IMG/VR virus record: IMGVR_UViG_3300032560_000038
Span: 1-43,904 of that record
Length of the DNA stretch: 43,904 bases
Source: a virus
Reading direction: 5' to 3' (one strand)
Each line of letters starts with the position of its first letter. Positions within the stretch are counted from its first letter, which is position 1. The position numbers and the translations under genes are program-made. The notes beneath the pieces are model-generated. The model ran no database searches. It saw nothing but the letters and a program-made list of their open reading frames with translations, and had not been told where the DNA came from. This document shows, one piece after another, positions 32,906-43,882 of the stretch.

Positions 32906-32911
32906 TATACT
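32906..32911 (+). promoter_or_regulatory. -10 box TATACT of a probable leaderless promoter
   Basis: TATACT ends six bases before the ATG at 32918; the sequence between is AGTTAA and no ribosome binding site is visible. Transcription would begin on the start codon. No good -35 was found. Confidence 0.55.
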
Positions 32912-32917
32912 AGTTAA

Positions 32918-33847
32918 ATGAACTTCTATGATGTAGTTGCGAGCAAAGCAAGCCCTATCGAGCTTGAGCCTGGCCCAGCATCATACTTCAGTGAACCTAG
33001 TGGTATTTTAGATCCTCGCCTATTTAAGAGTAATAAGATCCGTTCTTCAGTACGCGATGCGATTCTCGCCTCCTTATTCGGGCATCTAGAGCAAACATAC
33101 TCAGATCCTCAATCATGGTGCAACGTATGGTTAGCAGGCTCAGGAGTTTCATATCAGTGGGCTGCGGAGCGTGAACCAGCAGACCTAGACTGCTTAGTAG
33201 GTATCGATTACATTCGATTCCGTCAGGCTAACGAGCGTTACGCAGGCCTTAGCGACCAAGAGATCGCAGCAACATTCAACGAAGGATTCAGCGAGCAATT
33301 AAATAAAGATACTGCTCACTTCCTAGATACATTTGAGTTGACGTTCTACGTTAACGTACGTAGCAACATTGTCGAGATTCGACCATACGCTGCTTACAAT
33401 CTAACATCTGATTCATGGACAGTCCAACCTGTTATCACATCACCATTTCGTCCTGCGGACTGGGAAAGCAAGTCGGCACGTGACAAGATATTGGCTGAGG
33501 GTATTCTGTCTCGCTATCAAAAAGCCTTGAATGGTATTTCAGCAGCACAGAATGATGCAGCAAGAATTAATGCAGAGTCAGCACTTCACCTAGCAGTAAT
33601 GCAAGGCGCTGCATTGTTTGATGACATACATGAAGGTCGTAAGTATGCGTTTAGTCCTGCAGGACAAGGTTACATAGACTACGCTAACTACCGCTGGCAA
33701 GCAGGTAAAGCATCTGGTATTGTTCCCGCACTTAAGAAGTTAAAAGAAGTATCAAAGCAATCAAAGCAAGAGTTTGCTGCTCAAACCTATGGTGTAGAGT
33801 TGCCTGACACGAACACATTGATTCGCCGCGCTATCACACGCAAGTAA
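32918..33847 (+). CDS. Nucleotidyltransferase-like protein
   Basis: 309 residues, no ribosome binding site, probably leaderless. Around residues 68-95 is WLAGSGVSYQWAAEREP then ADLDCLVGIDYI: a G-S near a helix followed by D-x-D, the metal-binding signature of DNA polymerase beta-type nucleotidyltransferases. A further strand LTFYVNV might supply the third site but no Asp is obvious there. The C-terminal half is helical. First gene of a cassette with a HAD-like and a TIM-barrel-like protein. The substrate is unknown. Confidence 0.6.
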   Translation: MNFYDVVASKASPIELEPGPASYFSEPSGILDPRLFKSNKIRSSVRDAILASLFGHLEQTYSDPQSWCNVWLAGSGVSYQWAAEREPADLDCLVGIDYIRFRQANERYAGLSDQEIAATFNEGFSEQLNKDTAHFLDTFELTFYVNVRSNIVEIRPYAAYNLTSDSWTVQPVITSPFRPADWESKSARDKILAEGILSRYQKALNGISAAQNDAARINAESALHLAVMQGAALFDDIHEGRKYAFSPAGQGYIDYANYRWQAGKASGIVPALKKLKEVSKQSKQEFAAQTYGVELPDTNTLIRRAITRK

Positions 33848-33871
33848 CACCTAAGACCACACGGAGCACTA

Positions 33872-34330
33872 ATGGCAATACTAATGTCACTTGACGGCGT
33901 TATCCGCAACCCTCGGGACGGAGCGCCTATTCGTGATGGCTTACATCTTTATAACCATCTAAATCAAACCAATAAGATTCTGATTCTGGCTGAGGACAAA
34001 GAGAAGGCCGACCACTGGCTACGTCAGCAAAAGTTGCACAAGTATGACGACATTGTGGACTGGAAGTTGGTACCGCCTGGCGACAATGTTTGGGTTAGAA
34101 TGGCTCAGTACATCCGTGCTCAAGGGCCTGTTGATGCCGTAGTTACCGCAGACCTTGACATAGTAAAGCAGTTGATTGAGGTAGGTATAACTTGCCTAGC
34201 CTTCTGCCATCCTACCTATCTAGATTACAAGTTCCGTCCAGACGGCAGAGAAGGTCGCCGTACCTGGGATGAGATCTCAGGAGAGATTGACCGCCAGCAA
34301 GAATTGCTTGCTGAGGACGACCGTCTATGA
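33872..34330 (+). CDS. HAD-like protein with altered first motif
   Basis: 152 residues; CACGGAGC upstream. The N-terminus AILMSLDGVIRNPRDG follows the HAD motif I layout but has Ser where the nucleophilic Asp is expected (S-L-D-G instead of D-x-D-G). ILILAEDKEKADHWL resembles motif II and its following helix, and VDAVVTADLDIVKQLIEVGI resembles motif IV. It may be catalytically inactive or use the remaining Asp. It overlaps the next gene by four bases (ATGA). Confidence 0.55.
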   Translation: MAILMSLDGVIRNPRDGAPIRDGLHLYNHLNQTNKILILAEDKEKADHWLRQQKLHKYDDIVDWKLVPPGDNVWVRMAQYIRAQGPVDAVVTADLDIVKQLIEVGITCLAFCHPTYLDYKFRPDGREGRRTWDEISGEIDRQQELLAEDDRL

Positions 34331-35805
34331 GGCTCATTATGCTGGGGGCTGAGGTACCTAGTAACAGGACAATCTTAGAGTCTGCTGGTTGTACTTACAT
34401 GGGCGTTAGTTTCTACCGCCTTACCAAGCGTGGCCTTCCTAAGAAAACCACCTACCTATTAGACAACTATTTTAATTCTGAAACAAGCATTTTTGTTCAT
34501 GCTGGACTGGCCCACGACACCCAGCTTACCGGAAGAGAGCTCGAGGAGTTTGCTGCCGACTACGAGGAGTTCGTGGTTAATAATATAGATCGCATTACTA
34601 TGTTTGCTGAGTTCGACCATCCAGCCCTGCCTGAGAGCTTCATAGAGGCTCAACGCCGTACAGTCTGGGCAGAGATGCCACCTAGCAAGTTCCTACCTGT
34701 ATGGCGCCCTTCTACGGGCTACACAGGTCTTGCAGAGTTAACTGATAAGTACCTTGATATTGCCATCACTGGGCAGGCTATCGAGGACGAGACCCAACTG
34801 GCTCAGGCTACTCGTAGATACAAGAACACCAAGGGCACACGCTTCCACGCCATCTCCTGCGCTCGCCCTGACAACCTACGTCAAGTGGCAGTCGAAACCG
34901 CCAGCACAATGTCGTGGCTAAGCCCGATGATGCGAGGCGAAACGATTGTGTGGAACGGAACAAGTCTGGTACGTTACCCCAAGCGTATGAAAGATCAAGC
35001 ACGACCACGCTACAAAGCAGCCTATGAAAAGGCTGGGCTTGACTATGAACTGATCATGGAAGATGACAACAAGGAAGTATCCAAGTTAGCCGTCTGGTCG
35101 TACAACCAATTAGAATCGCACCTCAATAACCTTGATGCGGGTAAGGACATATCATATATGAGCGATGAAAAGCAAGAGGATATTTCTGCGGAAACCCTAC
35201 CCGCCAATGCTAATACAAGGGGGGTAGAAGTGCGGAAAGTTTTGCCGCGAGATCCCGCCGAAATGACCAGTTTGCCAGTGTTCGGGTACAACATGAAGAC
35301 TGTTGTAGAGACCGATGATGATGGTAACGAGATCATTAAGGATGTGCCTGTTGTGCATACAAAGGCATCCTCACTACGCGCCTGCGATACATGCTTTGTT
35401 GCTGCTAACTGCCCTGCTTTTAAGCCTCAGAGTGCCTGCCAGTTCAACCTCCCAGTAGAGGTAAAGACTAAGGATCAGATGAAGGCTTTGATCAATGCAA
35501 TCATCGAAATGCAGGGTCAAAGAGTCGCTTTTATGCGATTTACTGAAGAAATGAACGGCGGATACGCAGATCCAAATGTATCTCAGGAGATCGATCGCCT
35601 GTTCAAATTACTCAAAACTACTAAAGAATTGGATGACTCCTCATCGTTTATTCGTATGACTGTTGAGGGAAAATCCGCTGGTGCTGGAGTGCTGTCTGCC
35701 ATCTTTGGAGACAGGGCTCAGGCCTTAAGAGAGTTGCCTGAAGGCGGTCTCAACGAGGTACAAACCACCAGAATTATCCAGCAAGCGATCGAGTCTGATC
35801 AATAG
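34327..35805 (+). CDS. TIM-barrel (TGT/DpdA-like) protein with Cys cluster
   Basis: 492 residues. The first ~230 read as a half-barrel series: LIMLGAEV, IFVHAGLAH, ITMFAEFDHP, FLPVWRPSTG, LDIAITGQAI, RFHAISCA and ETASTMSWL, the order seen in tRNA-guanine transglycosylase and DpdA-like barrels. At the two usual catalytic Asp positions I see His (VHAG) and Glu (VETAST), so activity may differ. A long linker follows; residues about 352-371 hold CDTCFVAANCPAFKPQSAC, four Cys likely binding zinc or iron-sulfur. The C-terminus is helical. Function unknown; DNA or tRNA base modification is one guess. Confidence 0.5.
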   Translation: MRLIMLGAEVPSNRTILESAGCTYMGVSFYRLTKRGLPKKTTYLLDNYFNSETSIFVHAGLAHDTQLTGRELEEFAADYEEFVVNNIDRITMFAEFDHPALPESFIEAQRRTVWAEMPPSKFLPVWRPSTGYTGLAELTDKYLDIAITGQAIEDETQLAQATRRYKNTKGTRFHAISCARPDNLRQVAVETASTMSWLSPMMRGETIVWNGTSLVRYPKRMKDQARPRYKAAYEKAGLDYELIMEDDNKEVSKLAVWSYNQLESHLNNLDAGKDISYMSDEKQEDISAETLPANANTRGVEVRKVLPRDPAEMTSLPVFGYNMKTVVETDDDGNEIIKDVPVVHTKASSLRACDTCFVAANCPAFKPQSACQFNLPVEVKTKDQMKALINAIIEMQGQRVAFMRFTEEMNGGYADPNVSQEIDRLFKLLKTTKELDDSSSFIRMTVEGKSAGAGVLSAIFGDRAQALRELPEGGLNEVQTTRIIQQAIESDQ

Positions 35806-41893: not shown

Positions 41894-43882
41894 TTAGTGT
41901 GTAGTTGTTAATTGGTCTGCTACTACCTTGCGAGCCACATTTACTAGATCGGCTGGCTTGGAGATCGCGGTAAAGTGATCAGCACCATGACCATACTCTA
42001 GTAGTTGCTCATCTAACTTTTGCTTTCGGTTCTCGTAGCCCTCAAAGGTGTTGAGGTTGCCGAGGTACACAATACACACAGTTACGCCCTCCTCTTGTAA
42101 CTGGCTAACTATGTTATTGCACTCACGCGCTTTATCCCACGCGCCGTCGGTCACTATGAACAGTAACTTGGTCGGCTTCTGAGAGGCTCGCATTAGGCGC
42201 TGGGTAGTGCGTAGTCCAACGCTAGGGTTAGTGCCACCCGAGGTACGGCTGATCTTGTAGGTGTTCGGCTCTGCTTTTTCAGTAGCGTCGTAGAGCATAC
42301 GGCTGATATGGTTGAAACTCATAACAGTTACGTTACTATCTATGCGCTCCAACCCACGCTTCATAGCCCATACTGCTCCACTAGCGTTAGCGATATCCCA
42401 TGCCATTGAGCCACTACGATCTAGCATAATAACTGCCTCGATATCACAGTTGTCGTTGCCCGTACTCCACTTGTCGAACAGGCGTGGCAGGTCATTTATT
42501 CCCGAGTTCATAGTACGGGGGATATTTAACTTACCGCTTGGGCGCTCCTTCTCCCACTCAGGGTCATTGTCCACCCGTAGTCGCTCTAGTTGATCGCCGA
42601 AGGCTTTAGAGGCGTAGCGATACTCAGGCTTGATCTCGTTGCTATAACTAAAAATAGTATCTTTAGCAAGTGTGTTACCGAAGCCGTCGTTATTGAGAGC
42701 CTTACTAACTGTCTTAGTATCAGCCTTGACCTCAGGTAGAGAGGCGAGATACTTGGCTCGCTCGTTGATCAGCGCCGTAACCTCATCTGAAAGTTCGCGT
42801 TGCTCTTTAGTAATAGTCTGCTCATCATCTCCGACTACGCCGTCGCTTGGCTCGTCGCCACTATCATAGTTATCAGCAGGGTCATTACTATTAGGCTTTT
42901 TATCACTTGGGCGAAGTTGCTCTTGATCGCCAGCCTCTTGCTTGCTCTGATCTTGAAGTTCGTTCTGCTCAGAGCCTTTAGTAGTGCGCCCATTTTTCAT
43001 AACTGGCCGATCAGCACAACCACAACCGCCGTTATTCTTAGGTGCTTGGCTACCCACGTACTTTTGCATTTCCATAATTAGTTCTTTAGCACGTGCGCTA
43101 TCGCGTGGGAAGGCTAGGGTTCGGTACTCGTCAATAATATCTGCAACTGCTTGCGCTTGCTCGATACCATATCTATCTACATATAACTCTGCAACACGTT
43201 GGCGCAGAGCGATATCTAGGTGTAGCCGACCGCGAGTGATATAGAAGGCTTCGGGCAAAGATTCAGGGTTGTTAGTATCTATAGCATAGGTGGTAGCACT
43301 AGCCTCTAGGAAGTATCTCGTACTAGGATACTTAGTAGCCATAAGGCTCTCGATACGTGCCTCCTCCAAAGTATTGAAGGCGAGTTGATACTTAGGTCGC
43401 TTGCGAGTATCCCAACCCTCCTGTACCTCCTCGACCTCGGTGCTCATAACCCACTTGCCTAGTTCACTACCAGCGCGGGGCGAATATAGTAAGTGGCTAA
43501 GTTCATGATAGTTAAGCCCGTTGATAGCGACGAGAGATACGTCGTTCACGTCGTCTAGCAACTTAGGGTTCATCTTAATATCTAGCCCGTTATTGGTGGC
43601 TACACTTTCCATATCGGAGTTGGCAGGGCTAATAACTACCTTAACATCTTGATTAGAGAGAATACGATCAGCCTTGCTATAGATATTGGCTACGCTTGCG
43701 TACTTAGAGATAAGGTCGTTCTCAGCCTCCTCTACTTCGATACGTGCGTCCTCGTCAATATCCCACTTGACCTGATAGTTTGCCTCTAGCCAGTTATTAG
43801 CCTCGGGGGTGTTAGGCGTTAGCCCAACACCCTCGATAGCCTCGTCTAGCATACGTTGGCGTATTTCCCAAAAGGTAGCCAT
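41894..43882 (-). CDS. VWA-domain protein with HExxH motif (CobT/MoxR-partner-like)
   Basis: 662 residues; TGAGGTG precedes the ATG. The N-terminal half has NYHELSHLLYSP (H-E-x2-H zinc-binding metallopeptidase-like motif near residue 125) and long helices. Residues about 290-355 are polar and acidic (KPNSNDPADNYDSGDEPSDG), as in CobT-like linkers. The C-terminal VWA domain has AVIMLDRSGSMAWD (MIDAS D-x-S-x-S), GGTNPSVGL (MIDAS Thr) and FIVTDGAWD. Such proteins pair with MoxR/CobS AAA+ ATPases as chelatase-like or remodelling machines; the ATPase is expected just beyond the window edge. Confidence 0.8.
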   Translation of the reverse strand: MATFWEIRQRMLDEAIEGVGLTPNTPEANNWLEANYQVKWDIDEDARIEVEEAENDLISKYASVANIYSKADRILSNQDVKVVISPANSDMESVATNNGLDIKMNPKLLDDVNDVSLVAINGLNYHELSHLLYSPRAGSELGKWVMSTEVEEVQEGWDTRKRPKYQLAFNTLEEARIESLMATKYPSTRYFLEASATTYAIDTNNPESLPEAFYITRGRLHLDIALRQRVAELYVDRYGIEQAQAVADIIDEYRTLAFPRDSARAKELIMEMQKYVGSQAPKNNGGCGCADRPVMKNGRTTKGSEQNELQDQSKQEAGDQEQLRPSDKKPNSNDPADNYDSGDEPSDGVVGDDEQTITKEQRELSDEVTALINERAKYLASLPEVKADTKTVSKALNNDGFGNTLAKDTIFSYSNEIKPEYRYASKAFGDQLERLRVDNDPEWEKERPSGKLNIPRTMNSGINDLPRLFDKWSTGNDNCDIEAVIMLDRSGSMAWDIANASGAVWAMKRGLERIDSNVTVMSFNHISRMLYDATEKAEPNTYKISRTSGGTNPSVGLRTTQRLMRASQKPTKLLFIVTDGAWDKARECNNIVSQLQEEGVTVCIVYLGNLNTFEGYENRKQKLDEQLLEYGHGADHFTAISKPADLVNVARKVVADQLTTTH

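Follow-up and report, generated by a model that had tools for sequence, protein, structure and literature searches.

Organization and conservation of the cassette

The window analysed here is the IMG/VR virus record IMGVR_UViG_3300032560_000038 (43,904 bases), and the subject of this work is a cassette of three adjacent genes within it. They encode a nucleotidyltransferase (NTase)-like protein (protein 1), a degenerate HAD protein (protein 2) and a barrel protein fused to a four-cysteine (Cys4) domain (protein 3) (Table 1). We found that the barrel of protein 3 descends from DpdA, the DNA-guanine transglycosylase of phage 9g and its relatives within the tRNA-guanine transglycosylase (TGT) superfamily, that its nucleophile is missing throughout the family, and that the Cys4 domain recurs in proteins annotated as small terminase subunits. 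Our tentative proposal is that protein 3 would recognize DNA and no longer modify it.

Table 1. Position of the cassette genes, their domains and key residues, and flanking elements in the window
Feature	Position	Strand	Remarks
Cys-rich protein, 177 amino acids	31811-32344	+	co-conserved upstream; possible fourth cassette member
TATACT, -10-like element	32906-32911	+	leaderless promoter candidate; 6 nucleotides before the gene 1 start codon (TATACT-N6-ATG)
Gene 1, NTase-like, 309 amino acids	32918-33847	+	open reading frame (ORF); G74-S75, D89-L-D91 and E140 kept
Gene 2, degenerate HAD, 152 amino acids	33872-34330	+	ORF; related to the phage polynucleotide kinase 3'-phosphatase domain; Ser6 replaces the nucleophile Asp
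ATGA overlap of genes 2 and 3	34327-34330	+	4 bases shared; translational coupling
Gene 3, 492 amino acids	34327-35805	+	DpdA-derived barrel and terminase-small-subunit-type Cys4 domain
TIM barrel of DpdA descent	34327-35136	+	gene 3 residues 1-270; AlphaFold2, Foldseek, hhalign
His58	34498-34500	+	at the DpdA/TGT acid/base Asp position
Glu95	34609-34611	+	newly acquired invariant residue; acidic in 82/82 homologues, not acidic in five DpdA
His174	34846-34848	+	equivalent by motif to DpdA-family His196; 82/82 homologues, 5/5 DpdA
Ser193	34903-34905	+	at the DpdA/TGT nucleophile Asp position
Cys4 domain	35359-35736	+	gene 3 residues 345-470 (about); C353, C356, C362, C371, then Q-x-QR and EIDR helices

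Relatives were present on 429 viral-contig stretches for protein 3 and on 239 for protein 1; 80 loci were kept from each group and scanned with the profiles of all three proteins, and the homologue sets comprised 89 (gene 1), 84 (gene 2) and 78 (gene 3) members. The order NTase-HAD-TGT on one strand was kept in 150/150 loci holding all three genes, and the grouping that the initial annotation had seen in the window was in this way found to recur elsewhere. Where the set was incomplete, the contig ended at or before the missing gene, or this gene gave only a partial match at the end. Genes 2 and 3 overlapped or abutted in 124/150 loci, by exactly 4 nucleotides in 83 of them, and inserts were found between genes 1 and 2 in some loci. 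In addition, in close pairs, the ratio of nonsynonymous to synonymous substitution rates (dN/dS) was 0.02-0.12 for each cassette gene wherever dS could be estimated. We therefore regard the three genes as almost certainly a conserved operon under selection.

The window was mostly colinear, gene by gene, with the genome of Streptomyces phage GiJojo, including genes for baseplate, helicase loader, DnaB, primase, helicase, Pol I, RecA, Cas4-like and RuvC proteins, among others. The cassette proteins were 27-39% identical to those of Streptomyces phages; the colinear genes for replication and structure fall into the same range, which speaks for core genome. The window also contains a WhiB gene, a marker of actinobacterial hosts (PMC10202952), and BRock, a phage of the same type as GiJojo, has been described as a myovirus (PMC7453282). 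Judged from colinearity, phage type and WhiB together, the cassette is no recent insertion but part of the core genome in a lineage of actinophages that has BRock and GiJojo, both Streptomyces myophages, as relatives. Among isolate phages, tblastn returned matches to proteins 1 and 2 only in Streptomyces phages BRock, GiJojo, LuckySocke, Alone3 and pSt2308; protein 3 matched the same five and, via its C-terminal part, one Bacteroides phage.

Genome assemblies of Terracoccus, Nonomuraea, Herbidospora and Saccharothrix also contained loci of the lineage (L187, L188, L189 and L190, respectively). As BRock itself is described as virulent, prophages or phage plasmids may account for them. Genes 2 and 3 stay close in all four of these divergent bacterial loci. 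An NTase homologue was not found anywhere in the Terracoccus and Saccharothrix genomes, and as two of the four bacterial genomes with the HAD-barrel pair thus lack it, the NTase is, on sequence evidence, not obligatory for the pair.

Stepwise loss of the catalytic residues in the protein 3 barrel

The TGT/DpdA-type barrel that the initial annotation had recognized in protein 3 was borne out by three methods: the protein matched phrog_887 (E 6e-51), AlphaFold2 modelled residues 1-270 with a predicted local distance difference test (pLDDT) score of about 90, and Foldseek returned mostly TIM barrels. Soil-type members of the family, by which we mean those of the Streptomyces phages and of the loci in Terracoccus, Nonomuraea, Herbidospora and Saccharothrix genomes, matched true DpdA proteins by hhalign with a probability of 98.3 and E 1.8e-14. 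The aquatic clade alone matched DpdA weakly (E 0.003-0.02) and is linked to it via the soil members, at 31-38% identity; these pairwise hhalign E-values are single comparisons.

We aligned five true DpdA proteins with seven soil members and 75 aquatic homologues (82 family members). The equivalents of Asp58, Asp97, Asp193 and His174 were each present in 5/5 DpdA proteins. The soil members kept Asp58, Asp97 and His174 (7/7 each) and had lost Asp193 (0/7), while in the aquatic clade His174 was retained in 75/75, Asp97 in 31/75 and Asp58 and Asp193 in 0/75. Position 193 corresponds to the nucleophile, which is Asp280 in bacterial Tgt of Z. mobilis (PMC3660597); it was Ser in 71 of the 82 homologues, Ala in seven, Thr in three and His in one, and never Asp or Glu. 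Position 58, where DpdA has its second catalytic Asp within the DSG motif, varied among H, Y, E, F, S and N, and position 97 among D, N, V, S, T, Q and A. The initial annotation had placed His and Glu at the usual catalytic Asp positions. The His is His58, as it said, and the Glu has to be corrected: it is E190, three residues upstream of the nucleophile position, which is Ser193 by the DpdA alignment. E190 was rejected as a substitute nucleophile, being E in only 55/78 homologues and otherwise A, S, V or T.

Other residues of the barrel were strictly kept. His174 corresponds to the conserved His196 that is a feature of DpdA (PMC6884629), and it was invariant in the family together with W197, R216, Y217, K222, Q224 and R226. 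A further set, E95, R110, K121, W209, D246 and E250, showed, like R216, Y217, K222, Q224 and R226, little or no variation within the family, and these residues are mostly not shared with DpdA.

In a phylogenetic tree, DpdA and the protein 3 family were split with support of 99/99, and the aquatic clade was monophyletic at 100/100. Because the tree separates DpdA from the family and holds the aquatic clade as one group, the nucleophile need, on this tree, have been lost only once, before the family radiated. Taken together, these alignments indicate that the protein 3 barrel is a DpdA descendant whose catalytic residues were lost stepwise, and it is very probable that protein 3 is not a base-exchanging transglycosylase.

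The Cys4 domain of protein 3 and its relatives

The four-Cys cluster noted at first sight in protein 3 was well founded, as C353, C356, C362 and C371 were invariant in 78 homologues. The same domain occurs in Bacteroides phage BS162P1 as gp88 (E 2e-19), in a gene row that runs QueC (gp86), a catalytically intact DpdA (gp87) and the Cys4 protein (gp88) (L003 4052-6483). A second gut phage (MT835482, L174 3794-5992) likewise carries a Cys4 gene directly 3' of DpdA; the Cys4 protein is an unrecognized neighbour of DpdA in gut phages. Within its catalytic motif C (SSDSS / TTWLGG), the DpdA of MT835482 is apparently interrupted by some 400 residues that resemble an intein.

Furthermore, the domain was found in proteins encoded directly upstream of the large terminase subunit (TerL) in Gordonia, Tsukamurella and Rhodococcus phages, which matched the soil members with E 6.7e-8 and aligned motif by motif. 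One of these TerL-adjacent proteins, gp28 of Rhodococcus phage Trogglehumper, is 199 amino acids long and consists of little besides the Cys4 domain. None of the GiJojo genes tested around TerL was recognized as a small terminase, and no second copy of the Cys4 domain was found among the GiJojo ORFs searched, so that protein 3 was the sole copy found. From these sequence matches, the Cys4 part of protein 3 is a domain of the terminase-small-subunit type. A match in Streptomyces sp. ISL-96 (L191) was considered as a stand-alone gene and discarded; it covers the Cys4 part only, is surrounded by chromosomal metabolic genes and a transposase-like ORF, and is probably a remnant.

The 7-deazaguanine pathway and possible catalytic partners

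The initial annotation had remarked that queC, queD and folE are missing from the window, and they are missing from its lineage too: QueC, FolE and QueD were found in 0/28 lineage genomes (25 environmental ones, many of which may be fragments, and three Streptomyces phages), and the control phages 9g and BS162P1 were positive in the same search. phrog_887 occurred once per lineage genome, which leaves protein 3 without a catalytic partner, and a second DpdA was not found in the lineage genomes tested. In five actinobacterial genomes that carry relatives, no TGT was found, and a clear QueC was present in one of the five (Saccharothrix only).

Three possibilities were rejected on these grounds. 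TGT/DpdA activity with preQ0 made by phage or host fails on the loss of the nucleophile in 82/82 homologues, the lack of pathway genes in the lineage genomes tested, and the finding of one clear QueC and no TGT in the five actinobacterial genomes; a role as QTRT2-like partner of a host TGT fails on the absence of TGT from those five genomes; and the lineage genomes tested were not found to encode another, intact DpdA. The initial annotation's picture therefore stands in part. The conserved cassette, the NTase-like protein, the degenerate HAD and the TGT/DpdA barrel without its catalytic Asp all hold, while an active base-modifying system does not, given the missing nucleophile, the missing preQ0 pathway and second DpdA, and the actinobacterial genomes with relatives, in which TGT and mostly also a clear QueC are lacking.

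The HAD and NTase proteins

Protein 2 matched the phosphatase domains of phage polynucleotide kinases (PNK) by hhalign (probability 93.5, E 2.3e-7), and phrog_415, a polynucleotide kinase family, was matched in 4/61 members of the protein 2 family. The Ser that was first noticed at the HAD nucleophile position is indeed there in the window (Ser6), and the position varies freely across the family: among the residues printed for 84 homologues it was F in 52, S in 13, Y in nine, V in three, L in three and M in one. The second Asp of the HAD motif was kept in 76/84 homologues, whereas the acids of motif IV were out of register in the alignment. By these comparisons protein 2 is a degenerate HAD of the PNK-phosphatase type that has no nucleophile.

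The G-S ... D-x-D pattern reported for protein 1 is present and was invariant among 89 non-redundant homologues (100% each for G74-S75 and D89-L-D91), and the E140 position was acidic in 89/89 (98% E, one D). AlphaFold2 modelled the protein with a pLDDT of 90 and with a strand, the GS loop, the DxD strand, helices and a third acidic strand in that order, which fits an NTase. Among the BFVD matches were a fusion named amidoligase and, with E 2e-7, a phage protein whose name includes a nucleotidyl transferase domain; Foldseek gave no PDB match below 1e-3, and the long helices drew unrelated matches. To judge from its conserved motifs, protein 1 is most likely active as an NTase, and it has its own helical C-terminal half. 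On Streptomyces plasmid pRLB1-9.1 (L196 4072-9242), an NTase relative was also seen inside an 895-amino-acid protein, which is followed by an 828-amino-acid '2'-5' RNA ligase family protein'. For all three cassette proteins, Pfam and NCBIfam gave nothing above cut-off, and a sequence search of PDB gave no relevant match.

Promoter candidate and neighbouring genes

A leaderless promoter had been suggested before gene 1, and comparative counts favour it: TAnnnT at matching spacing preceded gene 1 in 54/89 homologues, against 7/84 for gene 2 and 4/78 for gene 3. With the strict form, TATANT and a 6-nucleotide gap, the counts were 26/88, 0/84 and 1/78, respectively, and two further gene 3 homologues had TATANT with a 7-nucleotide gap. 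The start of gene 1 was the only gene start in the window carrying the element. A consensus promoter scan was uninformative (13 found, 11.7 expected). In the Streptomyces phages, a hairpin and a TATAGT element lie just before the DpdA-like gene, and a low-complexity, probably disordered protein is encoded between the HAD and DpdA-like genes (L001 6008-6838 and homologues).

The Cys-rich gene upstream was present in 91/94 non-redundant loci and also in all four bacterial loci, and GiJojo gene 175 is homologous to it. An endolysin gene separates it from the NTase gene in the Streptomyces phages, where the order is nevertheless kept. Downstream of the cassette, a ribonucleotide reductase gene was found in 80/94 non-redundant loci. 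On the minus strand at 41894-43882, the window encodes a 662-amino-acid protein with a weak match to a phage 'cobalamin biosynthesis protein' (phrog_5298); the ribonucleotide reductase of this phage is of the B12-dependent kind (class II).

Interpretation of the cassette

The reading that we favour is that the cassette is no 7-deazaguanine system and that protein 3, on the scaffold of a dead DpdA, serves DNA recognition with a HAD partner and an accessory NTase; we give this DNA-recognition mechanism a probability of roughly 0.4. Protein 3 would no longer exchange bases, and its barrel and Cys4 domain together would bind phage DNA as a recognition subunit, in a step that could be small-terminase-like or genome-marking. 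Protein 2 would be its co-translated partner. The NTase would play an accessory part, transferring a nucleotide to some target presented by the complex, and it would be dispensable in some relatives.

Several points weigh against this reading. The match to the TerL-adjacent Cys4 proteins was moderate (E 6.7e-8 for the soil members and 1.7e-4 for the mainly aquatic profile), the name TerS for those proteins rests on gene position and annotation, and the N-terminal part of the Gordonia TerS proteins, considered as a DpdA barrel, was rejected because its similarity was not significant. In GiJojo, TerL lies at 24.6-26.2 kb and protein 3 at 99 kb, unlike the usual arrangement of small terminases. 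The AlphaFold2 model was poor for the C-terminal half of protein 3. Finally, the invariant new polar residues of the barrel, E95, R110 and K121, fit a new catalytic activity as well. A more far-reaching form of the proposal, which we consider doubtful, is that a base-exchange enzyme turned into a DNA-packaging or genome-recognition protein by losing its nucleophile and fusing with a small-terminase Cys4 domain, and now, together with a pseudo-HAD and an NTase, serves an essential step in a large freshwater and soil actinophage lineage.

The cassette could instead be centred on the NTase and serve nucleic-acid end modification or repair: protein 1 would add nucleotides to the ends of RNA (tRNA) or DNA, and the degenerate HAD and the barrel would be only recognition subunits. 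The retention of GS, DxD and E140 in nearly all 89 NTase homologues fits this explanation, as do the PNK-phosphatase type of the HAD, the approximately 30 tRNAs, the RNA ligases and the PNK of the Streptomyces relatives, and the plasmid-borne NTase relative beside a '2'-5' RNA ligase family protein'. However, the HAD-barrel pair of Terracoccus and Saccharothrix exists without any NTase, and the window contains no tRNA; we consider the explanation unlikely, with a real chance of being right.

An improbable alternative is that the barrel is still an enzyme, with an active site rebuilt from E95, H174, R110 and K121, and carries out a different base or nucleotide chemistry in an undescribed modification. 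In its favour, E95 is acidic in every family member and not in DpdA, H174, R110, K121, R216 and Y217 vary little or not at all, and purifying selection is strong. Yet the active-site Asp positions 58 and 97 decay stepwise and drift freely, as expected of a non-catalytic pocket.

It is distinctly improbable that the genes are neighbours merely through whole-genome colinearity and that their products do not work together. Colinearity with GiJojo and BRock extends over the whole window, other neighbours are kept too, and two bacterial loci lack the NTase, all of which would suit this view. Against this, inserts enter between genes 1 and 2 and yet genes 2 and 3 remain overlapping or abutting in most loci, these two stay close in the four divergent bacterial loci, and the order survives in the Streptomyces phages despite the endolysin gene between the Cys-rich gene and the NTase. 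A genuine DpdA that inserts host-supplied preQ0, as the GenBank names imply, is almost certainly not what protein 3 is: the family falls into phrog_887 and phages that carry dpdA only do exist (PMC6884629), but the nucleophile Asp is absent from all 82 homologues, and the five actinobacterial genomes with relatives held one clear QueC and no TGT.

Comparison with known systems

The loss of the catalytic Asp bears on how the relatives of protein 3 are named. The GenBank names 'queuine tRNA-ribosyltransferase' and 'dpdA-like tRNA-guanine transglycosylase' stand on NC_048650.1 gp36 and PP725410.1 gene 181, whose products are without the catalytic Asp; such names would lead readers to expect 7-deazaguanine in nucleic acids, and the sequence evidence speaks against it. 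The operon is core to hundreds of environmental actinophage contigs, and the protein 3 family is a clear case of an enzyme fold under strong selection after stepwise catalytic loss.

Each protein of the cassette has a counterpart from which it departs. Protein 1 probably shares the fold of pol-beta-type nucleotidyltransferases and differs in its helical C-terminal half, and protein 2 has the fold of the polynucleotide kinase 3'-phosphatase (HAD) without the catalytic Asp. Protein 3 is like DpdA in the barrel, the motif order, the DpdA-specific His, W197 and G204, and its soil members also share the DSG turn. In contrast to DpdA, the nucleophile Asp is gone in all members and the acid/base Asp in the clade of the window, a Cys4 domain has been added, preQ0 genes are lacking and the neighbours are different. 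The non-catalytic subunit QTRT2 of eukaryotic TGT has the TGT fold without the catalytic Asp and is thought to aid nucleic-acid binding (PMC3660597); protein 3 resembles it as a TGT-fold subunit without that residue, but has no catalytic partner in the phage genomes or host genomes tested.

BS162P1 gp88 has the same Cys4 domain, but as a separate gene beside a catalytically intact DpdA, and the BS162P1 genome, unlike those of the lineage, has the preQ0 pathway (FolE, QueD and QueC found). The Cys4 proteins upstream of TerL, annotated as terminase small subunit (PHROG 6902, 16015), differ from protein 3 in that they adjoin TerL and show no detectable similarity to DpdA in their N-terminal part; they share with it the C-terminal Cys4, the Q-x-QR helix and an EIDR-like motif. 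The protein 3 family connects DNA recognition of the DpdA type with the small terminase in a way that can be tested, and the Streptomyces isolates BRock and GiJojo make this reading testable at the bench.

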